Source of the DNA: Sandaracinus amylolyticus
GTDB taxonomy: Bacteria; Myxococcota_A; Polyangia; Polyangiales; Sandaracinaceae
DNA: 64,000 bases
Reading direction: 5' to 3'
NCBI RefSeq assembly: GCF_021631985.1
Contig: NZ_CP070225.1
Span: 5,704,001-5,768,000, forward strand
Under the pieces are notes generated by a model. The model was not told the DNA's origin, did not search any database, and worked only from the letters and a program-made list of their open reading frames with translations. Made by a program: the position numbers and the translations under genes. The number at the start of each line of letters is the position of its first letter. Positions within the stretch are counted from its first letter, which is position 1. Shown here piece by piece: positions 44,068 to 54,894 of this stretch.

Positions 44068-44385
44068 GGATGCCGGCGTGCTCGGAGCAACCGGGATGCC
44101 CTGGGAATCGCTCCACGACTGCGGCTCATCGTCGGGAGACCACGCGCGTCGTGAGCGTGTGAGCGCAGAAAGGAACGCTGCGGGATCCCGATCGAGTGTG
44201 GGACTCGTCGCGGCACGACACCGTGTCTCGCGTGTGCGAGCGCGAGGTCGCACTTCGTCCCGTCTACGCGCCCGATGCCGCCGGTTCGGCGACGACGATC
44301 CGGGAGATCCGACTCCGCTCCTCGATGCTGGAGTGGCTCGTCTCGTGCTGCCCACCAGCGCAGGAGCCCGAGGCCGAAGAACGGT
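44068..44385. promoter_or_regulatory. Divergent promoter region between exporter operon and HAD/transaldolase gene
   Basis: A 318-base gap between two start codons on opposite strands. No coding frame with convincing composition, hairpin or palindrome was found; it must hold promoters for both directions. Confidence 0.45.
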
Positions 44386-46320
44386 ATGCACGACGGTTCG
44401 CGAATCGCAGCGCTGCTGGCGGACGTCGACGGGACGCTGCTCACGAAGGACAAGGTGCTGACCGAGCGGGCGCTCCGCGCGGTCGACTCGCTCCGCGAGC
44501 GCGGCATCGTGTTCACGATCACCAGCGGTCGTCCGCCTTTCGGAATGCGGATGCTCGTCGAGCCGCTCCACCTGACGATGCCGATGGCAGCGTTCAACGG
44601 CGGCGTGATCGTGCTGCCGGATCTCTCGGTGCTCGATGAGCGCTTGCTGCCGGAGTACTTGCTGCCGGCGCTGCTGGACATGATCGAGGGACACGGGCTC
44701 GACGTGTTCGTCTTCCGATCGCGCGACTGGTTCGTGCGCTCCCTGAATGCGCCGCGCGTGAGCCGCGAGACCTCGAACATCCAGCAGGCTCCCGTCGTCG
44801 TGAAGAGCTTCGACGAGGTGCTCGCGGGCGTCGTCAAGATCGTCGGCGTGAGCAACGACCTGCCCCGCGTCGCGGCGTGCGAGGCGGCCGTGCGGCAGGC
44901 GTTCGGGACCCAGGTCTCGGCGGCGCGATCCGCCCCGCACTACGTCGACGTGACCCATCCGGGGGCGCACAAGGGAGTCGTGATCGAGCGGCTCTCGCGG
45001 TATCTGAAGATCCCGCTCGAGCACATCGCCGCGATCGGAGATCAACCGAACGACGTTCTGATGTTCGAGCGTGCCGGGCTCAGCATCGCGATGGGCAATG
45101 CGAGTGACGAGGTGAAGCGGCGCGCCACCGTCGTGACCAGCTCGTTCGCCGACGAAGGTTTTGCCGAGGCCGTCGATCGCATCGTCCTGCCTCGCAGCGC
45201 GGCTGCGAGCGGCCCTGCGGTGAAGACCACCGGGAGGCTCCATCACCTGGGCCAGAGTCTCTGGCTGGATGGCATCGGCCGCGACGCGCTCGAGTCGGGC
45301 GCGTTGCAGCGCCACATCGACGAGCGCTCGGTGACCGGGATCCGATCGAATCACGCGCTCTGGGCACGTGCGCTCGAGACGAGCTCCGCGTACGACGACT
45401 CCATCGCGAACGGGCGGCGCCGGAACCGCTCGAGCGAGGAGCTCCTGCTCGACATCGCGATCGAGGATCTCGCGCAGGCAGCGGATCTCCTTCGTCCCGT
45501 CCACGAACGCAGCGCGGGCGTCGACGGGTGGGTCTCCCTCGGAACGAGACTGGCTCACGACACGGTGAGCGCGGTCGCCGGCGCGAAGGAGCTCCTCTCC
45601 CGCGTGGCCCGCCCGAATTGGATGATCGAGATCCCCGGCACGCCGGCGGGACTGTCGGCCATCGAGCACCTGATCTTCGCCGGAGCCCCCGTCAACGTCG
45701 TGCTCCTCTTCTCTCGGGAGCAATACCTCGCGGCGGCCGAGGCGTACCTGCGGGGAGTCGAGCGTCGCGTCGACGCGGGCCTTCGCCCCGACGTCGCGTC
45801 GCTGGCCACGATGTCGATCCGTCGTTGGGACGCCGCCGTGGCAGGCGCGGTCCCCGAGGAGCTCCGAGGAGGGCTGGGCATCGCGATGGCCCAACGCACC
45901 TACAAGGCGTACCGCGAGGTCCTGCGCTCACCGCGGTGGCAGCGGCTCTACAACCTCGGTGGGCGCCCGCAGCGACTCCTGTGGGACATCACGGGGTCCG
46001 AGGACGCGAGTGCGTCCGACGTCACGTACGCGGCCTCGCTGACGGCGCAGTTCACGGTCCTGGCGATGCGGGAGCGCGCGCTGCTGGAGTTCGCGGAGCA
46101 CGGTCAGGTCACGACGCTCCTGCCGGCCGACGGCGGCACCAGCGACGAGACCCTCGCGCGTTTCCGAGCGGCAGGGATCGACCTGTATGCGCTCGCGCCG
46201 AAGCTCCAGGAGGACGGTCTGGCGAGGCTCGCGGGATCGTGGAGCGACCTCGTCGCGACCGTCGAGCGGAGAGCCGGGCGCGGCGACCTCGATCGCCGAC
46301 AGACAGGTGCTCCCGCCTAG
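44386..46320 (+). CDS. Fusion of Cof-type HAD phosphatase and degenerate transaldolase
   Basis: 644 residues. Residues about 7-275 are a HAD-IIB (Cof/YbiV) phosphatase with every catalytic motif: DVDGT with Asp13/Asp15, TSGRP, Lys196 in HPGAHKGV and GDQPNDVLMFE with Asp219/Asp223. Residues about 285-632 match the long bacterial transaldolase family: LWLDGIGRD, SVTGIRSN, LLRPVHERSAGVDGWVS, RLAHDT, IPGTPAGLSAI, SVNV-like VNVVLLFS and a final SW(N/S)DL. The Schiff-base lysine expected before IP is Glu415 (codon GAG, 45628-45630). The E-V-D segment after VS is deleted, and the Thr of the LTLLFS strand is Val. The second domain is therefore probably not an active transaldolase and may bind sugar phosphates or regulate. 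The gene is divergent from the exporter/phosphoketolase series. Confidence 0.9.
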   Translation: MHDGSRIAALLADVDGTLLTKDKVLTERALRAVDSLRERGIVFTITSGRPPFGMRMLVEPLHLTMPMAAFNGGVIVLPDLSVLDERLLPEYLLPALLDMIEGHGLDVFVFRSRDWFVRSLNAPRVSRETSNIQQAPVVVKSFDEVLAGVVKIVGVSNDLPRVAACEAAVRQAFGTQVSAARSAPHYVDVTHPGAHKGVVIERLSRYLKIPLEHIAAIGDQPNDVLMFERAGLSIAMGNASDEVKRRATVVTSSFADEGFAEAVDRIVLPRSAAASGPAVKTTGRLHHLGQSLWLDGIGRDALESGALQRHIDERSVTGIRSNHALWARALETSSAYDDSIANGRRRNRSSEELLLDIAIEDLAQAADLLRPVHERSAGVDGWVSLGTRLAHDTVSAVAGAKELLSRVARPNWMIEIPGTPAGLSAIEHLIFAGAPVNVVLLFSREQYLAAAEAYLRGVERRVDAGLRPDVASLATMSIRRWDAAVAGAVPEELRGGLGIAMAQRTYKAYREVLRSPRWQRLYNLGGRPQRLLWDITGSEDASASDVTYAASLTAQFTVLAMRERALLEFAEHGQVTTLLPADGGTSDETLARFRAAGIDLYALAPKLQEDGLARLAGSWSDLVATVERRAGRGDLDRRQTGAPA

Positions 46321-46394: not shown

Positions 46395-47426
46395 TCAGAT
46401 CCACACGACGGCGAACACCAGCGCGACCAGCGCGAGCGCGCCCGCGACTGCGAGCACGATCGTGCGCCGCTCGAGCGACGCCATCGCCGCCGGCGAGATG
46501 CGCAGCCCGATCGCCGCCATCGACACGGCGAGCGCAGCGTTCGCCGCGTCGAGCACGACGCCGCGTGTCGCCTCCCATGCGCCGTCGATCCCCGTCCCGC
46601 GGAGCGCGAAGGAGATCGCGGTTCCGAGGACTCCCACCGCGAAGAACGCGATCGCGAGGCCGGGAACGGCGGGGCGACGCCTGGCGCTCGGCGCAGCGAT
46701 CGGCGTGACGAGCGGGAGCATCGCGAGCCCCACCGGCAGCAGCGCGACGCGCGCGAGCTTCGTGAGCAGCGCGAGCGGCGCGACCTCGGGCTCGGCCGCG
46801 CTCGCCGCCACCACGTGCGCGACCTCGTGCAGCCCGCCGCCTGCGACGAGCGCGAACGTCGGACCGTCGAGCGCGCCGATCGCGTGAGCGCCCGCGAGGA
46901 GGAGCGCGAGCGCCGCGCCGAGCACGCTCACCGTCGCCACGGCGAGCGAGACGTCCTCCTCACGCGCGTCCAGCCTCGGCGCGGCGGCGACGATCGCGGC
47001 GGCACCGCACACGCTGGTGCCGATCGCGACGAGTCCCGCGAGCCTCGACGAGAGTCCGAGCGCTCGCGCGAGCAGCGCGAAGAGGACGAGCCCGAAGGCC
47101 ACCGCGACGAGCGCGACGATCCACGGGCGCCACCCCGCGCTCGCGATGAGCGAGCCGTCCAGCCGCAGCGCGCTCGCGACGACGGCGGCGCGCAGCACGT
47201 GGGTCGACAGGGTCCGCAGCCCCGCGTCCTCGTCGGCGCGGGGAGCGCTGCCGAGCCGCTCCCGCGTCGCTCGGAGCGCGGCACCGACGAGGAGCGCGGT
47301 CGTGAGCGCGCCGATCGCGCGCCACGGCGCGTGCGGCGTCGTGACCAGCGCGAGCAGCGCGATCATGATCGCCGGCCACGCGCGACCGACGTTGCGCGCA
47401 AGCGCGACGACATCGTTCGTCCGCAT
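46395..47426 (-). CDS. YeiH/YeeE-like putative sulfate or anion exporter (UPF0324 type)
   Basis: 343 residues with about ten membrane helices. The family hallmarks are the loop GTSVCGAAAIVAAAP and GGGLHEVAHVVAAS, close to the GTSICG and HEVAHV signatures of the conserved YeiH family. Members have been proposed to export sulfate, sulfite or a sulfur compound, but this is weakly proven. The ATG at 47426 has GGAGG upstream and lies five bases after the SoxB-like stop. Third gene of a DsrE-like, SoxB-like, YeiH-like operon, which supports a role in removing a sulfur anion. Confidence 0.85.
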   Translation of the reverse strand: MRTNDVVALARNVGRAWPAIMIALLALVTTPHAPWRAIGALTTALLVGAALRATRERLGSAPRADEDAGLRTLSTHVLRAAVVASALRLDGSLIASAGWRPWIVALVAVAFGLVLFALLARALGLSSRLAGLVAIGTSVCGAAAIVAAAPRLDAREEDVSLAVATVSVLGAALALLLAGAHAIGALDGPTFALVAGGGLHEVAHVVAASAAEPEVAPLALLTKLARVALLPVGLAMLPLVTPIAAPSARRRPAVPGLAIAFFAVGVLGTAISFALRGTGIDGAWEATRGVVLDAANAALAVSMAAIGLRISPAAMASLERRTIVLAVAGALALVALVFAVVWI

Positions 47427-47431
47427 CGCGC

Positions 47432-49027
47432 TCACCTCCGCTCGTACTGAGAGAAGACGTGCGGAGGCAGATCGTCCGCGACGACGCGGCGCGAGCCGTC
47501 GAGCACCACGGGGTCGTGCGCCCGCAGATACCGCCGCACGGCCTCGTGCACGTCGATCTCGTGCGTGACCGCGCTCTTCACGTTCGCGATGCGGCAGAGC
47601 GTGTCCTCGGGATCGCCCTCGCGCGCGCACGCGGTCAGCGAGTAGCGCCGCTCGTCCTCGATCGGACGGCCGCCCACGTCGAGCGACACGACGCGCTCGC
47701 CGCGAGCGCGGTCGGTCCGGAAGCGCGCATGCATGCCCGAGATGCGCGGCAGCCAGCCGCCGAAGAGCTGGTCGGCATCACGCGAGAAGACGTGCTCGAT
47801 CTCGCTCTCCCAGAAGTGCCGCAGCTGAGCGCCGGTGACACTCCCCGTGCGCAGCGGCGTCGAGACCGGCAGCCACATCCAGAGGTCGCCCTCGGTGATC
47901 GGACCGGGCTCGATCGGATGGCCGAAGCGGAAGCCGTTCGACATCGCGATCTCGGTGCCGGTCGCCTCTCGCAGCGCGTCCGTCACGACCGCGTCGGCCG
48001 AGGTCTCGAGCACGCCGTAGCGCTCGAGCGGCACGCCGCTGTGGCCGATGACGCGACCCGCCCGCTCGCGGTGCGGCGCGAGAGCGTCCGCGACGAGCTG
48101 CGCGACGTGGGGATCGCCGCGATAGCGATCGGCGCGGAGCTCGACGAGCTCCCAGCGCAGGCGCGGCCGCACGCCGGGCCGCTCGATCTCGACGTCGAGC
48201 CGGCCGAGGAACGACGCGAACGCGCCGGGCTCGACGATCCACGTCCCGCCGCGCTCGATCGGCTCGTAGACGCGCTCGTGGGTGTCGCCCGAGAGCACGA
48301 CGTCGATCCCGGGCACGCGCTCGGCGAGCGCGATCGCGCGCGCCAGGCCGAGGTGCGTGATCGCGATCACCACCTCGGCTCCGTCGCGCTCCCGGAGCGC
48401 ACGGACGTGCGGCGCGATCACGGTGGCGTCGAGGAATCGCAGACCCGTCGAGTACGCCGGCGGCTGTCGCCGCGGCACGTCGGGGTCGGTCACCCCGACG
48501 AAGCCGAAACGCACTCCGCCGACGTCGCGGACGAGCGTCGCGGGGAAGAGCGGCTCGCCGCTCGCATCGTCGACGACGTTCGCGGCGAGGACCGGATATC
48601 CGACGTCGCCGAGCAGCTCGCGCATGCGCGCCGGCCCGTGCACGACCTCCCAGTTGCCCGGGATGCCCACGTCCACGCCGAGCGCGCGCTGCGCCGCGAG
48701 CACGACCTCGCCGCGCGACCACGCGGCCGGCCCGGTGCCGTGGAACGTGTCACCGCCGTCGACGAGGAGCGCGTGGCCGCCCACCGAGCCACGGATCCGC
48801 CGCGCAGCCTCGGCGAGGCGCGCGTAGCCGCCGCCGCGCGAAGAGATGCGCCTTCCGTCGGGCTCGCGGAACACCTCGGGGTGCTCTTCGAGCTGCGCGT
48901 GCGCATCGGAGAAGAACATCACCGTCGCCGAGCGCGCCTCGACGGCGCGCGGGTGATCGGTCGAGGCGGGCGCGCTGCCGCAGCCCGCGAGCAGCACGGT
49001 GATCGAGAGACAGAGCGCGCTGCGCAT
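47432..49027 (-). CDS. SoxB/5'-nucleotidase-family metallohydrolase, lipoprotein
   Basis: 531 residues with lipobox LLAGC. The N-terminal metallophosphatase domain has the two-metal ligands SDAHAQ (Asp41, His43), VDGGDTFHG (Asp93), PGNWEVVHG (Asn125), ITHLG and GDTHERV. The C-terminal domain (about 340-520) has the substrate-binding pattern AMSNGFRFGHPI ... WLPVSTP. The GNWE reading, in place of GNHE of nucleotidases, resembles SoxB, the sulfate thiol esterase of thiosulfate oxidation. No soxXAYZ is nearby. Hydrolysis of a nucleotide or sulfonate ester remains possible. The ATG shares one base with the DsrE-like stop (TGATG). Confidence 0.85.
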   Translation of the reverse strand: MRSALCLSITVLLAGCGSAPASTDHPRAVEARSATVMFFSDAHAQLEEHPEVFREPDGRRISSRGGGYARLAEAARRIRGSVGGHALLVDGGDTFHGTGPAAWSRGEVVLAAQRALGVDVGIPGNWEVVHGPARMRELLGDVGYPVLAANVVDDASGEPLFPATLVRDVGGVRFGFVGVTDPDVPRRQPPAYSTGLRFLDATVIAPHVRALRERDGAEVVIAITHLGLARAIALAERVPGIDVVLSGDTHERVYEPIERGGTWIVEPGAFASFLGRLDVEIERPGVRPRLRWELVELRADRYRGDPHVAQLVADALAPHRERAGRVIGHSGVPLERYGVLETSADAVVTDALREATGTEIAMSNGFRFGHPIEPGPITEGDLWMWLPVSTPLRTGSVTGAQLRHFWESEIEHVFSRDADQLFGGWLPRISGMHARFRTDRARGERVVSLDVGGRPIEDERRYSLTACAREGDPEDTLCRIANVKSAVTHEIDVHEAVRRYLRAHDPVVLDGSRRVVADDLPPHVFSQYERR

Positions 49028-49500
49028 CAGTACCTCACGATCGCCGCGTCGCGCGCGACGTAGTCGACCAGCGTCGCGATCGCGTTGGGCACGATCTCGG
49101 TGGGCTGGGGATCGAGGCGATCGCGATCGACGCCCATGTGAACGAGCGCGCTGGCGCAGAGCCGCACGCGCACGCCGGCCGCCATCGCCGAGCGGATGAG
49201 CTCGGTGAGCTGCGCGGGGCGCGCGGAGATCGTTCCGTCGAACGCCTGCACGCCGCGGCCGTAGACGAGCACCACGACCTCCGAGAGGCGCTGCTGCTCG
49301 GCCGCGGTGCGCGCGTGGCGGAAGACCGAGGACATCGTCTGCGCGTCGAGGCCCGTGGTGAGCACGAAGACGAGAGCGCGATCGGAGCGCGCGGGCGCGT
49401 CGGCGGCGGGCCGAGCGGGAGACTGCGCATGCAGCGTCGCCGGCGCGCACCCGAGCGCGACGATCGACGCGAAGAGGACGAGAGAACGGATCGTGACCAA
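49027..49500 (-). CDS. DsrE-like exported protein
   Basis: 157 residues. The start is a TTG at 49500 following GGAGG by six to seven bases; no ATG or GTG lies near the leader. A signal with possible lipobox (VALGC) is followed by a DsrE/DsrF-like alpha/beta domain: ALVFVLTTGLD, a VVLVYGRGVQAFDG strand, RLCASALVHMG and a C-terminal strand. DsrE proteins carry sulfur on a Cys or bind sulfur donors; here the Cys in RLCAS lies near the usual position. Exported versions are less common. First gene of the sulfur operon. Confidence 0.8.
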   Translation of the reverse strand: MVTIRSLVLFASIVALGCAPATLHAQSPARPAADAPARSDRALVFVLTTGLDAQTMSSVFRHARTAAEQQRLSEVVVLVYGRGVQAFDGTISARPAQLTELIRSAMAAGVRVRLCASALVHMGVDRDRLDPQPTEIVPNAIATLVDYVARDAAIVRY

Positions 49501-49609
49501 GACACACCTCCACGACTGCGCTCCGGAGAGCGCGGGTTGTTCCTCGCGTTCCGCAGGTCGCGGGGGCCGGCGAGGGATCGGCCGCGGGTGACGCTCGGAG
49601 AGCCGAGCG

Positions 49610-49957
49610 TCAGGCGGTCCGTGGAGGTCGATCGAGGCGTGTCGAGCGGGGATGGGCCGAGTCGCGCGCGCGGCTGCGCTCGAGCGCGAGCTCGACGACC
49701 GGCGCGCGCACCGTGGTGCACGCAGGAGCGAGGCCGATCGTCGGCGCGCAGGGCGCCGCGTCGTCGACCTCCGCGAGCTGGTCCGCCGCCGTACCGTCGG
49801 CGCCGACGTACGCCGTCGCGCGCACGAGCGGCTTCGCTCGCTCGCAGCGCAGAGCGCGGTATGCGCTGACCTGCACGGCGAAGGAGACGACGACCGCGAG
49901 CGCGATCGTCACGCCGCGTCGGAGGGGACCGAACGACACGCTCGGGATGCACAGCAC
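49610..49957 (-). CDS. Small predicted membrane or exported protein
   Basis: 115 residues from a GTG at 49957. A single hydrophobic helix (about residues 16-33, VTIALAVVVSFAVQVSAY) follows a basic N terminus (PLRRG), then an Ala/Asp-rich segment with three Cys and a basic tail. Codon third positions are strongly G/C, which supports real coding, but no family is recognised and the ribosome site is weak. It sits on the minus strand just ahead of the DsrE-like gene and after the arsenate reductase gene. It could belong to either group or stand alone. Confidence 0.5.
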   Translation of the reverse strand: MLCIPSVSFGPLRRGVTIALAVVVSFAVQVSAYRALRCERAKPLVRATAYVGADGTAADQLAEVDDAAPCAPTIGLAPACTTVRAPVVELALERSRARDSAHPRSTRLDRPPRTA

Positions 49958-50032
49958 TCGGCATGCCCGCGCGAATTCCTCGCGATCACGCCGCGCGTGA
50001 AACGTCGTGAAACGGATCCCGCGCTCGACGTT

Positions 50033-50437
50033 TCATCCGCGCCCGATCCCTTCGCGCGCGATCAGCGCGAGGACACGCGCGCGCACGCCGTCGCGGATCG
50101 CGCGCACCTCGTCGATCGGCTTGCCCTTCGGATCGGGCAACGGCCAGTCGTCGCGACGGAGGCCGGGCACCACCGGGCACTGCTCGTCGCAGCCCATCGT
50201 GATCAGCATCGTCGCGCCGCGCGCGAGCTCGTCGGTCAGTCGCTGCGGCTGCCGCCCTTCGAGCTCGATGCCGACCTCGCGCATCGCGACCGCGACCTCC
50301 GGATGCACGCGCGGTCCGGGCTGGGTGCCGGCGGAGATCGCGCGCGCCTTGGTGGGATCGGCGAGGTGCTCCAGCCACGCGGCCGCCATCTGCGAGCGAC
50401 CCGCGTTGTGCACGCACGCGAACAGATAGGTCTTCAT
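50033..50437 (-). CDS. arsC: Arsenate reductase (low-molecular-weight phosphatase type)
   Basis: 134 residues. Reduces arsenate to arsenite with a thiol relay. P-loop CVHNAGRSQ (Cys-x5-Arg) near residue 8, further Cys pair MGCDEQCP near 80-86 and the phosphatase-type DPKGK loop near 100 are all present, so it is catalytically complete. The donor could be thioredoxin or another small thiol. The ATG at 50437 shares one base with the Acr3 stop (TGATG); an upstream in-frame extension lies inside that gene. The arsenite produced would leave by Acr3. Confidence 0.93.
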   Translation of the reverse strand: MKTYLFACVHNAGRSQMAAAWLEHLADPTKARAISAGTQPGPRVHPEVAVAMREVGIELEGRQPQRLTDELARGATMLITMGCDEQCPVVPGLRRDDWPLPDPKGKPIDEVRAIRDGVRARVLALIAREGIGRG

Positions 50438-51552
50438 CACGCCCTCGTCTCGTTCACGGTGCCCGGCGCGCACGGCGCCGCGATGATCTCCACGTCGGTG
50501 CCGGGGAAGTGCTTGCGCTGCAGCCAGAGCGCGACGTTCACGAGCCCGATGAGCACCGGCACCTCGACCAGCGGCCCGATGACCGCGGCGAACGCCGCGC
50601 CGCTGTCGATGCCGAACGTCGCGATGGCCACCGCGATCGCGAGCTCGAAGTTGTTGGACGCCGCGGTGAACGAGAGCGTCGCGCTCTGTCCGTAGGTCGC
50701 GCCCACGCGCTTGCTCATGAAGAACGAGACCAGGAACATCACGACGAAGTAGACGAGCAGCGGCAGCGCGATGCGCAGCACGTCGAAGGGCAGCTCGACG
50801 ATCGTCTCGCCCTTGAGCGAGAACATCACGACGATCGTGAAGAGCAGCGCGACCAGCGTGATCGGCCCGATCCGCGGGACGAACGTCGTCTGGTACCAGT
50901 CGGCGCCGCGCGCGCGAACGAGCACGAAGCGCGTCAGGAATCCCGCCGCGAACGGGATGCCGAGGTAGATGGCGACGCTCTGCGCGATCTCGCCGATCGT
51001 GATGTCGACCACCGCGCCCTCGAGCCCGAGCCAGCTCGGCAGCAGCGTCGCGAAGAAGTACGCGTAGACCGAGAAGAAGAGGACCTGGAAGATCGAGTTG
51101 AACGCGACGAGGCCCGCGCAGTACTCGGTGTCGCCCTTCGCGAGATCGTTCCAGACGATCACCATCGCGATGCAGCGCGCGAGCCCGATCAGGATGAGCC
51201 CGAGCATGTATTGGGGCTCGTCGCGCAGGAACAGGATCGCGAGGCCGAACATCAGCACCGGGCCGATCACCCAGTTCTGCACGAGCGAGAGCACGAGCAC
51301 GCGCCGGTTGCGGAAGACCTTGCCGAGATCCTCGTAGCGAACCTTCGCGAGCGGCGGATACATCATCAGCACGAGCCCGATCGCGATCGGCACCGACGTG
51401 GTGCCGACGTTCATCGCGCCGAGCGCGTCGCGCACGCCGGGCACGAGCACGCCGAGCGCCACGCCCACCGCCATCGCGCCGAAGATCCAGAGCGTCAGGT
51501 AGCGATCGAGGAACGAGAGATTCCGGGCGACGCCCGTGGTCTGCGCGGACAT
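50437..51552 (-). CDS. acr3: Arsenite efflux permease Acr3
   Basis: 371 residues with ten helices, the BASS-fold arsenite exporter. Recognised by [36 protein letters not shown] (the conserved Cys of helix 4), the [17 protein letters not shown] stretch and [18 protein letters not shown] with the Glu of helix 9. Start ATG 51552 lies four bases after the ArsR stop and before the leader; the longer frame to 51705 is shadow. Middle gene of arsR-acr3-arsC. Confidence 0.95.
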
Positions 51553-51556
51553 CGGG

Positions 51557-51934
51557 TCAGCCTTCCTTCGCGAGCTTCTCGGGCGCCTCGAGCGCGGCCT
51601 GACGCGGCGGTGCGAGCGCGGAGATGAGGTCGCCGAGCGCACCGACGATCGAGAAGTCGAGCGAGTAGTAGACCCACGAGCCGCGCCGCTCGGAGCACAC
51701 GACACCCGCGTCCTTGAGGACCTTCAGGTGATGCGAGACGGTCGGCTGCGCGAGACCGAGGCCAGGCGTGATGTCGCAGACACACACCGCCCGGCCCGCG
51801 GCCGCGAGACGCGCGACGATCTCGAGACGAGCTTCGTCGGCGAGCGCTCGCAGGAGCGGCGCGTGACCGCGAATCGAGCGCGGAGCGATGACGGCCGGCG
51901 TGTCGCAGCGGTCGCGAAGGTCGTTTCGAGCCAT
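51557..51934 (-). CDS. arsR: ArsR-family arsenical-responsive repressor
   Basis: 125 residues, winged helix. Helix-turn-helix [24 protein letters not shown] near 57-80, preceded by CVCDI whose two Cys are in the position that binds As(III) in ArsR. Wing [11 protein letters not shown] follows. It should repress its own operon until arsenite displaces it. A 7+7 inverted repeat lies 20 bases upstream of its start and is the likely operator. Confidence 0.94.
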
Positions 51935-51954
51935 CGCGCGCAGACTACGGCGAA

Positions 51955-51979
51955 ATCGACGACCGTCAATACCGTCGAT
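51955..51979. promoter_or_regulatory. Putative ArsR operator upstream of arsR
   Basis: ATCGACG and CGTCGAT form an inverted repeat with an 11-base spacer. The spacer carries a TTGACG that fits a minus-strand -35, with TAGTCT 16 bases further, so binding here would block arsR transcription. A second perfect palindrome (ACTTCG-A-CGAAGT) lies at 52016-52028. Confidence 0.5.
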
Positions 51980-52045
51980 CGAGCGACACGAGATTGGCGC
52001 GAATGCTCATCGTTCACTTCGACGAAGTACGATATCGCGCCGCGG

Positions 52046-52621
52046 CTAGCTCGGCTCGCCCTTGCACCCACTGCACCCGCGCGGCGTGCACTCCGTGATG
52101 CGACGCCGCGCATCGAGCTCGATCGCGCACGCTTCCTCGAACATGCGCCGGAGCTGCTCGCGCCCGCGCTGCACCCGCGACTTCATGCCGGAGTGCGACA
52201 CGCCGAGCATCGCTGCGGCGTCCTTCTGCGACACGCCTTCGATCTCGGTGAGCGTGATCGCTTCGCGGTAGGGCGACGGGAGCATCGTGACGAAGCGCGC
52301 GACGCACCCCACGAGCTCGCGCGTGAGCGCGTCGTCGCTCTCGCCGTCGTCGGGCGCGGCTTCGATCACGACGTCGTCGCCCGCGACGGGATGACGCGCG
52401 CGCGTGCGCCGGTGCTCCGCGATCGCGCTCCGCGCGACCTGGAAGAGCCACGGCGCGAGCCGCTCCTGATCGCGCGCCTGCCCGATGCCGCGCTGCATTC
52501 GCAAGAACACGTCCTGCAGCACGTCGTCCACGTCGGCGGGCGCGGCGACACGACGCGCGACGAACGCGCGAAGGCGTCCTTCGAGCTCGCGCCACACGCG
52601 CTCCGCCTGGGGATCGTTCAC
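52046..52621 (-). CDS. SigZ-like extracytoplasmic-function sigma factor
   Basis: 191 residues from a GTG that overlaps the arsM stop by four bases. Region 2 (about 15-80: FVARRVAAPADVDDVLQDVFLRM ... WLFQVARSAIAEHRR) and region 4 (about 115-165: LPSPYREAITLTEIEGVSQKDAAAMLGVSHSGMKSRVQRGREQL) are complete. A short tail with Cys residues, CTPRGCSGC, is typical of SigZ proteins and may bind a metal or arsenite. No anti-sigma gene is adjacent. Coupled to arsM, it may direct transcription of arsenic or stress genes. Confidence 0.9.
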   Translation of the reverse strand: MNDPQAERVWRELEGRLRAFVARRVAAPADVDDVLQDVFLRMQRGIGQARDQERLAPWLFQVARSAIAEHRRTRARHPVAGDDVVIEAAPDDGESDDALTRELVGCVARFVTMLPSPYREAITLTEIEGVSQKDAAAMLGVSHSGMKSRVQRGREQLRRMFEEACAIELDARRRITECTPRGCSGCKGEPS

Positions 52622-53454
52622 GCGCAGCACTCCGGACCGCAGCACGACTTGCCGGGCTTGATCGCCTCGATCGCCGCGGAGGCGACGTAGCGCTCCGCGC
52701 CGCTCTCGGGGAACCAGTCGCGGATCGTCGCGCGCGAGGCTTCCTTCACGTCGACGCGCACCTCGCCGAAACCGGCCTTGGTGAGCATCGCGCGGAGCTC
52801 CTCGACGTGCGCCGCGCCCGCGACACACCCGGTGTACGCGGCGACGTCGGCGCGCACCGCGTCGGGCAGCACGGCAGTGGCGACGACGTCCGCGATGGCG
52901 AGACGACCGCCCGGTCGCAGCACGCGGAACGCCTCGCGGAACACGGCGGCCTTGTCGGGCGACAGGTTGATCACGCAGTTGGAGATGATGACGTCGACGC
53001 TCGCATCCGACACCGGCATACGCTCGATCTCGCCGAGCCGGAACTCGACGTTCGTCGCGCCCGCCTTTGCCGCGTTGGCGCGTGCCTTCGAGATCATGTC
53101 GGGCGTCATGTCGACGCCGATCACGCTTCCCTTCGGTCCGACCTGTCGCGCCGCGAGGAGCGCATCGAAGCCACCGCCGCTGCCGAGATCGAGCACGGTC
53201 TCGCCCTCCTGCAGCGCTGCGATCGCCTGCGGGTTCCCGCAGCCGAGGCCCATGTCGGCGCCCTGCGGGACCGCCGCGAGCTCGGCGTCGCTGTAGCCGA
53301 GGCCTGCGCTCGTCGAGCCGACGCCGAGGCCTGCGCTGGTCGGGCCGCAGCACCCGCTCGGCGCGCACCCGCACGAGCCACCCTCGCGCGCGATCTTCCC
53401 GTACGTCTCGCGCACGGTGCCCCGGATCTCGTCCATCGTCTTGGTGTCGGTCAT
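52618..53454 (-). CDS. arsM: Arsenite S-adenosylmethionine methyltransferase
   Basis: 278 residues. N-terminal Cys cluster (SCGCAPSGCCG near 27-37) precedes the class I methyltransferase fold. SAM motifs: VLDLGSGGGFDALLAARQVG, VIGVDMTPDMISKAR, GEIERMPVSDASVDVIISNCVINL. The Cys in NCVINLS and one in YTGCVAGA match the arsenic-binding Cys of ArsM, and the protein ends in CCGPECCA. It methylates arsenite to volatile or exportable species. ATG 53454 has AGGAGG upstream. Coupled to the sigma gene downstream. Confidence 0.95.
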   Translation of the reverse strand: MTDTKTMDEIRGTVRETYGKIAREGGSCGCAPSGCCGPTSAGLGVGSTSAGLGYSDAELAAVPQGADMGLGCGNPQAIAALQEGETVLDLGSGGGFDALLAARQVGPKGSVIGVDMTPDMISKARANAAKAGATNVEFRLGEIERMPVSDASVDVIISNCVINLSPDKAAVFREAFRVLRPGGRLAIADVVATAVLPDAVRADVAAYTGCVAGAAHVEELRAMLTKAGFGEVRVDVKEASRATIRDWFPESGAERYVASAAIEAIKPGKSCCGPECCA

Positions 53455-53509: not shown

Positions 53510-54352
53510 TCATCGGTCCGCTCGGCGCGCGATCTCGGCCGCGACGCCGACGACCAGATACATCGCGAGGCCGTAGACGAGGATCGCCTCGGTCGTTCGG
53601 GGCGCGGGGTACACGGTCGCGGCGAGCGCGAGCGCCAGCGACAGACTGCGCACGCCGGTCGAGACGCCGAGCGCGACGCGGCTCGCGCGCTCCGCGCCAC
53701 GTCCGAGCAGCTGGGCCGCCATCACGCCCACGAGCGTCAGGAGCACCGAGGCACCGAACGTCCACGGCCCGGCTTCGAGCACCGAGCGCCAGCGCGCGAT
53801 CGCGATGCCGGCGATCAGCGAGAGGAGCAACAGGTTCGAGGCCGCGTTCGCGATGCGCGCAGCGCGCACCGTCACGTCGCCCGAGAGGTGCGCCCGCGCG
53901 ATCACCGCGAGCCCGAGCGGCACGAGCTGCAGCGCGATCGCCACGCCGGCGCCGCTCGCCGCGGCGACCAGCGATGCGCGCGAGCCCCCGCCCGTGAGCA
54001 GCGCGACGAGCGCCGGCGTCGCGAGCGCACTGAGCAACGTCGCGAGCACCACGAGCGCGGCCGTGAGCGCGGCGTTTCCCCGCGCGCGCAGCGTGAGCAC
54101 GGTCGCGGACGCGCCGCCGGGAGCGCACGCGGCGAGCGTCAGCCCTACCCGCGTGTCGGCGTCGATCGGCGCCAGCGCGAGGACCGCGGCGGCAGTGAGC
54201 GGCACGACGACGAGCGTCGCGATCATCGCGCGCACGAGGAGCCCGCGCTGCGCGAGGATCGATCGCGCCCGCGCGGCGTCGAGATCGAGCCCCACCGCCG
54301 CCATCGACGCGACGACGAGGAGCGCAGCGACGACGCGCTCGAGGAGCGTCAT
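53510..54352 (-). CDS. BASS-type (bile acid:sodium symporter superfamily) transporter
   Basis: 280 residues with about nine to ten helices. The motif GLTLAACAPGGASATVLTLRARGN and later AARIANAASNLLL resemble the crossing helices of the BASS fold shared by bile-acid symporters and Acr3. It starts at ATG 54352, overlapping the stop of the upstream membrane protein by four bases. Its position between an ArsR-family regulator and arsM suggests transport of an arsenical or another small anion; that is inference, as the family transports many organic anions. Confidence 0.82.
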   Translation of the reverse strand: MTLLERVVAALLVVASMAAVGLDLDAARARSILAQRGLLVRAMIATLVVVPLTAAAVLALAPIDADTRVGLTLAACAPGGASATVLTLRARGNAALTAALVVLATLLSALATPALVALLTGGGSRASLVAAASGAGVAIALQLVPLGLAVIARAHLSGDVTVRAARIANAASNLLLLSLIAGIAIARWRSVLEAGPWTFGASVLLTLVGVMAAQLLGRGAERASRVALGVSTGVRSLSLALALAATVYPAPRTTEAILVYGLAMYLVVGVAAEIARRADR

Positions 54353-54894
54353 GCCCGCGCCCACTGCGCGCCGCGCACCGCGAGCCACACGTGCACGATC
54401 GCGATCACGATCGCGCCCGGCACCAGGTTGGCGGCGATCGCGGCGCCGAGCGACGAGAGCCCGGTCGACATCGACGGCGCATCCCAGGCCCACGCGTCCG
54501 CCGGGCGGGCCGCGAGCGCGAGCGCGATGGCGGCAGTTCGCAAGATCGTCAGCACGACGTGCAACAGATACTCACCGCGCGACAGACCGCCGAGCTCGCG
54601 ACGCGACTCGGGCTCCACGAACACGTCCCAGAGCTCCACGACGGTGTCCGCCGCGGCGAGCCCGACGCCGAGCCACAGGAGCGCTCCCGCCGAGGGCAAC
54701 GCGAAGAGCACGAGGGCGATCGGACCGAAGAGCATCGCGCGCGCGGTGTGCAGCGCGTGCTCGCGCCGCGTCTCCGGGCGCGCGTGGAGACGGTCGCGGA
54801 CGAGGTGGAGATAGATCCCGTCGATCGCCGCGAGCGCCGTGAACGCTGCGAGCACCAGCGACGCCAGCAGTGAGAGGTCTTCGTCGATCTGCAT
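54349..54894 (-). CDS. Conserved-looking membrane protein, unknown function
   Basis: 181 residues from ATG 54894, which has GGGAGA-type purines upstream; an alternative ATG lies at 54921. Four to five hydrophobic helices are visible, with a charged loop containing RDRLHARPETRREHALHTAR. No catalytic motif was recognised. It lies after the ArsR-family gene and overlaps the BASS transporter start by four bases, so the three are probably one operon. Confidence 0.75.
   Translation of the reverse strand: MQIDEDLSLLASLVLAAFTALAAIDGIYLHLVRDRLHARPETRREHALHTARAMLFGPIALVLFALPSAGALLWLGVGLAAADTVVELWDVFVEPESRRELGGLSRGEYLLHVVLTILRTAAIALALAARPADAWAWDAPSMSTGLSSLGAAIAANLVPGAIVIAIVHVWLAVRGAQWARA

Follow-up and report, generated by a model that had tools for sequence, protein, structure and literature searches.

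Three genes lie tightly packed in a single row on the minus strand of a 64,000-nucleotide stretch of the genome of Sandaracinus amylolyticus (10.96 Mb, two contigs); the whole stretch, hereafter the window, comprises positions 5,704,001 to 5,768,000 of contig NZ_CP070225.1. In the order in which they are read they encode a DsrE/DsrF-family protein predicted to be exported (157 amino acids, 49027-49500), a SoxB-like lipoprotein (531 amino acids, 47432-49027) and a YeiH protein of the UPF0324 family (343 amino acids, 46395-47426), a putative exporter of sulfur oxyanions, probably sulfite. They sit where an earlier note on this DNA, made from the letters alone, had placed them, and its description of them as overlapping or nearly touching is borne out by the junctions. 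The ATG of the SoxB-like gene overlaps the DsrE stop by one base (TGATG), and the YeiH start comes 5 bases past the SoxB-like stop, which itself lies within the YeiH ribosome-binding site (GGAGGTGA-GCGCG-ATG). The TTG start given there for the DsrE-like protein also holds, GGAGG being six bases upstream. A longer open frame, 47432-49513, results from extending the SoxB-like frame mechanically.

The middle protein had been taken for a SoxB/nucleotidase-like lipoprotein with a GNWE motif. Lipobox (LLAGC), motif and domains are all there; what does not stand is an assignment to canonical SoxB, which is ruled out by score, by a metal-ligand position and by the absence of SoxYZ and SoxXA genes. The SoxB model TIGR04486 is the best curated match, at 249.7 bits (242.2 in the genome search) where the cut-off is 550; the best nucleotidase-type models, PRK09419, NadN and UshA, reach 64-88 bits. 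Both 5'-nucleotidase Pfam domains score above cut-off, Metallophos (PF00149) with 32.1 and 5_nucleotid_C (PF02872) with 64.9 bits, and a sequence search of the PDB brings up SoxB first (3.9e-50) and the nucleotidase 3ivd next (2e-24).

The active site was set against that of UshA, for which we take the residue roles and numbering to be those of a catalytic His-Asp dyad, a Phe429/Asn431 nucleotide clamp and a set of metal ligands. The column of the catalytic His is filled by Trp in 94 and by His in 22 rows of a 116-protein alignment, and neither the partner Asp nor the Phe429/Asn431 pair occurs in any of the Trp rows, 5 of which are SoxB references. The Trp rows divide into 57 with Asn-Trp, the window protein among these, and 37 with His-Trp, which are SoxB and a further set of SoxB-like proteins, group B; at UshA N116-H117 all five SoxB references have His-Trp. 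In the window protein Trp126 replaces the catalytic His, Val stands at the other dyad position, and Val, Thr and Arg occupy the positions of UshA F429, N431 and F498. Metal-ligand positions D41, H43, D93, N125, H225 and H250 (own numbering) are kept and are invariant in A3. In 4uwq, where SoxB is disulfide-linked to SoxYZ, alignment of the PDB sequence puts a Cys at exactly the equivalent of Trp126, so this position probably faces the Cys of the carrier. The predicted structure (predicted local distance difference test, pLDDT, 91.9) finds its best structural match in SoxB 2wdc (Z 41.0, root-mean-square deviation 2.2 over 480 residues, 30% identity).

Phylogeny had been set beforehand as the check that could overturn a sulfur assignment, by placing the protein among 5'-nucleotidases. 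Two trees were made, both with the four catalytic columns excluded and rows shorter than 400 amino acids dropped: a quick one of all 116 rows and a careful one of 61 hand-chosen rows. The quick tree supports the nucleotidases (n=22) at 99, SoxB at 100, group B at 97 and the clade of the window protein (54 rows) at 95. In the careful tree each of these groups lies to one side of a branch, with supports of 100/98 (nucleotidases, n=12), 100/100 (SoxB), 99/90 (group B) and 100/100 (the window's clade), and the window protein groups with four other Myxococcota rows (100/100). The 100/98 branch contradicts a placement inside the nucleotidases. By sequence, then, the protein belongs to a clade of its own, distinct from canonical SoxB and from the 5'-nucleotidases alike, and it is likely, if not proven, that this clade is nearer to SoxB than to the nucleotidases. 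Its signature combines GNW with FRF(G/S/A), the latter in most rows; 47 of 54 rows have Asp as the UshA-H252 ligand, and 48 of 54 a Cys pair (C467 and C478 of the window protein) in the UshA F498/D504 loop, a pair that none of 5 SoxB, 34 group-B and 22 nucleotidase proteins has. Close homologues are patchily distributed, being found in four of 96 genomes of the order, the window's own included, and in one of ten in the family.

Some other proteins met in this comparison merit mention. Most group-B members (L074-L103, L116, L120, L121) are His-Trp like SoxB; three are without a clear signal peptide and several are in persulfide-type gene clusters; they may be cytoplasmic SoxB-like enzymes. In three Bacteroidota loci (L066, L070, L110) genes of the clade and of group B are neighbours, and L110 has a nucleotidase-type gene as well. 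A Halobacterium '5'-nucleotidase' with GNWD adjoins a rhodanese (L118, 2902-4686), and on its long branch its placement is unsure. A record titled Comamonas sp. KCTC 72670 (L047) has a Myxococcus-like locus, groups with Myxococcus rows and is probably mislabelled.

The upstream protein belongs to the DsrE family by profile match (PF02635, 37.7 bits, cut-off 22.7), fold and conserved Cys. Its phmmer search against the PDB gave no match, and for that reason the predicted fold was used; the model (pLDDT 89.8) has structural matches in 1l1s, 1jx7 (YchN) and 2hy5 (DsrEFH). The mature part has a single Cys, C115, aligned in 46 of 46 homologues encoded near SoxB-like genes. Since a conserved Cys is a general mark of the DsrE family, this conservation supports a carrier role without proving it. 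A crude signal-peptide script classed 26 of the 46 DsrE frames as exported, 10 as not, and left 10 without a usable start, the window's own among these; judged by eye, the latter appears to be exported, and export seems to be common for DsrE proteins encoded near SoxB-like genes elsewhere. As for YeiH, the window protein matches PF03601 at 130.3 bits (cut-off 24.5) and scores 86.7 bits with TIGR00698, below the cut-off of 232.6. YeiH is reported to be the main sulfite-resistance factor in Salmonella (PMC12880088), which fits its earlier designation as an exporter of sulfur oxyanions, and to be thiosulfate-induced in Hyphomicrobium, in a study that also deals with YeeE-type import (PMC11582611). 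Its substrate here is probably sulfite, which it would export from the cytoplasm.

How the three genes stand in their genomes was approached in two ways, by searches of whole genomes and by comparison of neighbourhoods. SoxY was found in none of 50 genomes with a SoxB-like gene, the window's included (control plasmids 4/4 positive), and SoxZ is absent from the window's genome (controls 2/2 positive); with no SoxA/TsdA-type cytochrome domain there either, the lack of soxXAYZ remarked on for the window extends to the genome. Matches to that domain (PF21342) were present in the control plasmid and in 10 of the 22 genomes covered. YeiH gave 36 matches in 31 of the 50 genomes, and at distances of up to 5 kb from a SoxB-like gene 10 were observed against 0.08 expected; the genomes being related, the nominal p is too small, and Myxococcaceae-type loci account for five of the ten. 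PF02635 had 28 matches in 18 of 21 genomes hand-chosen from the 50, mostly ones with DsrE at the locus; where a genome has exactly one such match, that gene adjoins the SoxB-like gene in 11 of 12 cases, positions having been compared by hand. The window's genome has one DsrE match and one YeiH match in its 10.96 Mb, both beside its single SoxB-like gene, and the arrangement is therefore not chance. Elsewhere it holds rhodanese and metallo-beta-lactamase matches (the latter up to 1.4e-43), one YeeE and four TauE. Rhodanese and metallo-beta-lactamase matches at G000:C1:5702083-5703068 are some 1-2 kb ahead of the first base of the window.

Neighbourhoods were compared at 81 loci, the window and those of the 80 top-ranking relatives out of 276; the relatives were found by GNWE-type or DGGDT-type patterns, which biases the set to close relatives, and short metagenome contigs cut off some neighbourhoods. 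Neighbour families came from clustering all open frames, except that YeiH was called by a strict single-sequence search (10 loci), a looser profile (129 frames, 58 loci) having been discarded. Fifty-two of the loci belong to the clade (L024-L073, L097 and the window; the tree leaves out L073, a partial locus). Within 5 kb of the SoxB-like gene these have DsrE at 31 (24 of them within 1 kb), rhodanese at 30, a metallo-beta-lactamase of persulfide-dioxygenase type at 21, an ArsR-type regulator at 13, TauE and YeeE at 12 each, YeiH at 10 and SQR at 6. For the 29 group-B loci the corresponding figures are 11 for DsrE and 0 for YeiH. The set recurs in several bacterial phyla, with other genes of sulfur detoxification beside it. 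The conserved DsrE-SoxB-YeiH trio that the earlier note had proposed looking for exists, in 10 of the 52 clade loci, and its linkage persists despite changed gene order: DsrE, SoxB-like, YeiH in the window; SoxB-like, YeiH, DsrE in L035, L044, L046, L047 and L061; YeiH divergent from SoxB-like and DsrE in L032, L041 and L053; and, in L066, YeiH and DsrE some kb ahead of the SoxB-like gene with a group-B gene in between. Company of a similar sort is kept on plasmids: one from Pontibacter groups YeiH, a rhodanese and a c-type cytochrome with the SoxB-like gene, and on one from Runella three consecutive genes, for a c-type cytochrome, DsrE and the SoxB-like protein, lie amid genes for TauE, metallo-beta-lactamase and YeeE. 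A Methylosinus plasmid (L108, 5309-8956) has annotated soxZ and soxB, then two DsrE genes and a DUF302 gene, so that DsrE is there linked to a true SoxB; on a Bradyrhizobium plasmid (L114, 4995-6743) soxB adjoins chrA and is the only sox gene annotated inside 5 kb.

What might such a trio do? The explanation that we put forward, tentatively and with the balance of probability just short of even, is a small periplasmic unit for sulfane-sulfonate chemistry, composed of a SoxYZ-independent thiosulfohydrolase, a DsrE carrier and a YeiH sulfite exporter. It builds on the gene order and overlaps, the clade, the lost nucleotidase residues, the conservation of the DsrE Cys, the recurrent company of sulfur genes and the lack of SoxYZ. 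The substrate, the release of sulfate, the carrier role of DsrE, what YeiH transports and the order of the steps are what it proposes. The lipoprotein would be a two-metal thiosulfohydrolase that cleaves the terminal sulfonate of R-S-S-SO3 species, freeing sulfate, with its substrate held either on Cys115 of DsrE or on a polythionate. Cys115 would hold the sulfane part in place of SoxYZ, and loading could come about by thiol exchange with tetrathionate or from a persulfide donor such as rhodanese. The persulfide may then be handed on, rhodanese and persulfide-dioxygenase-type enzymes oxidizing it to sulfite in the cytoplasm, from which YeiH would move the sulfite out. The chemistry has a basis in what is reported of SoxB itself, for which thiosulfonate is the substrate and which cleaves trithionate, tetrathionate putting thiosulfonate on the carrier Cys (PMC5336275). 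A narrower scheme, detoxification of sulfite solely by hydrolysis of Cys-S-sulfonate, was rejected, since that study reports the conjugate to be no intermediate of the pathway and to stop short of the metals of SoxB (PMC5336275).

Several observations weigh against the proposed unit. Thermus SoxB, as described in the same study, fails to bind Cys-S-sulfonate in a productive manner (PMC5336275), and a route running purely through sulfite is limited by this; no report of the activity of any clade member was found. The window's genome has no match to the TsdA/SoxA-type cytochrome domain for making tetrathionate, control W01 being positive. At the UshA H252 metal ligand the window protein has Asp, unlike both SoxB and the nucleotidases, and by structural Z those two tie, the nucleotidase 3ivd following at Z 40.2 (root-mean-square deviation 2.8, 23% identity), so that the fold is that of SoxB and not exclusively so. 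Joining of the nucleotidases and the window's clade against SoxB and group B is not quite rejected by the approximately unbiased test (p 0.0501), and the closeness of the clade to SoxB rests in consequence on motifs and on the quick tree (96). No sulfur-family neighbour was found at 12 of the 52 clade loci, some of them with full 10-kb flanks. Nor is DsrE universal: at 21 of the 52 (several of these short contigs) it does not occur inside 5 kb, in the NW-H subclade it is present at the loci of only one of seven rows, and Minicystis rosea (G098, 16 Mb) has a clade member yet no PF02635 match genome-wide. Of the route suggested earlier, in which DsrE carries the sulfur, the sulfur part is well supported and it is the part played by DsrE that these absences touch. 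In its stronger form, where exported DsrE replaces SoxYZ as covalent carrier and the Cys pair of the enzyme receives or relays the sulfane sulfur, across a clade present in at least 6 phyla, the idea has to be considered unlikely.

The enzyme might instead hydrolyse free polythionates, tetrathionate and trithionate, as has been proposed for the SoxB of Erythrobacter flavus, and have no need of DsrE for this; DsrE would then only mop up the sulfane sulfur set free or serve another step. That is a possibility to be taken seriously, if a doubtful one. There is a precedent in E. flavus, where TsdA works with a SoxB-like protein that carries the annotation metallophosphatase/5'-nucleotidase, SoxYZ has no part, and a deletion blocks sulfur globules; TsdA-like two-haem cytochromes are present at 9 of the 81 loci, mostly in Bacteroidota, and the clade members lacking DsrE point the same way. 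Against it, DsrE is one of the partners most often and most closely found with the clade (within 1 kb at 24 of 52 loci), its gene overlaps the SoxB-like one in the window, and no TsdA-type domain turned up in the window's genome. That the protein is a normal 5'-nucleotidase or UDP-sugar hydrolase of the periplasm with incidental neighbours, as the two Pfam domains, the annotation of its homologues and the tied structural Z might suggest, is very improbable: the His-Asp dyad and Phe429/Asn431 are gone from 94 of 94 Trp rows, the nucleotidases keep to one side of their branch, sulfur genes recur as neighbours, and on motifs and trees the candidate was dismissed.

An explanation from arsenic resistance comes to mind from the genes upstream, on which the earlier note is silent. 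A 532-bp gap (49501-50032) containing a 115-amino acid frame (49610-49957, minus strand) that has no Pfam or NCBIfam match and may be no gene separates the trio from an arsenic set on the same strand (50033-53451, identified by Pfam and NCBIfam): ArsC (50033-50437), ACR3 (50437-51552), ArsR (51557-51934), an ECF-sigma-like frame judged by eye (52046-52621), and ArsM (52618-53451). The trio might serve this set, for instance by desulfurating thioarsenate or supplying sulfane sulfur for arsenic chemistry, being located downstream of ArsR-ACR3-ArsC at a distance of 0.5 kb, with ArsM beyond them. We find this hardly credible and judge the set to adjoin the trio without counting it as part of it; neither ACR3 nor ArsC was found at any of the 80 other loci, the 532-bp gap stands between arsC and the trio, a literature search for the combination gave nothing fitting, and an arsenic module was set aside on the restriction of ACR3 and ArsC to the window among the 81 loci. 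Further out, a second SBF-family transporter lies past ArsM (53510-54355, minus strand), and on the plus strand a single frame at 44329-46320 fuses an HAD-IIB phosphatase (residues 30-281) to a transaldolase (311-643).

The proposed sulfur unit has relatives among known systems, none of them identical. With SoxB (TIGR04486; Thermus 2wdc and 4uwq) the window protein shares fold, two-metal site, Trp for the nucleotidase His, lack of the Phe/Asn nucleotide pair and a motif of Arg-aromatic-Gly type (FRFG, against VRWG or FRWG in SoxB); it differs in having Asn where SoxB has His, in its Asp ligand, its lipid anchor and its Cys pair, and the system differs from the Sox pathway in lacking SoxYZ and SoxXA and in having DsrE adjoin the SoxB-like gene. 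With UshA and the 5'-nucleotidases (PF02872 and PF00149) domain layout and fold are common, dyad, clamp and clade are not. Window DsrE resembles the DsrEFH and TusBCD carriers (PF02635) in fold and in a single Cys at a strand-helix junction, and differs in its predicted export, in the overlap of its gene with the SoxB-like one and in being the only DsrE-family gene of the genome. YeiH shares PF03601 with the UPF0324 (PSE) family and scores below the TIGR00698 cut-off. A further relative is the pathway of E. flavus 21-3, where a SoxYZ-free SoxB-like protein, annotated metallophosphatase/5'-nucleotidase, is reported to be needed for sulfur formation, in the company of a sulfur dioxygenase and rhodanese (PMC7608252). 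The window's genome likewise has a SoxB-like gene without SoxYZ, together with a metallo-beta-lactamase of sulfur-dioxygenase type; TsdA makes the tetrathionate in E. flavus, whereas the window's genome has no match to a TsdA-type domain. The likeness drawn here is one of annotation and pathway, and 'DsrE' does not occur in the main text of that paper (PMC7608252). The spread of such a SoxYZ-free pathway has been described (PMC9426585), as has SoxB without other Sox genes in sediments (PMC12345210). A SoxYZ-free SoxB-like route is already known from E. flavus; for the present clade, and for DsrE partnering a SoxB-like enzyme, no description was found in open-licence full texts.

If the proposal is right, many a gene labelled '5'-nucleotidase' in Myxococcota, Planctomycetota, Bdellovibrionota, Acidobacteriota and Bacteroidota would be a sulfur enzyme and would go unnoticed in surveys relying on soxB or soxYZ as marker genes; GNWE, FRFG/S/A and the Cys pair are offered as a signature for their annotation. 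Can SoxB chemistry run on a DsrE carrier? The question is posed by a system of two proteins that can be purified. Were the exchange of carriers real, a second carrier-based pathway for thiosulfate or polythionate would have been hidden under the label of a 5'-nucleotidase.

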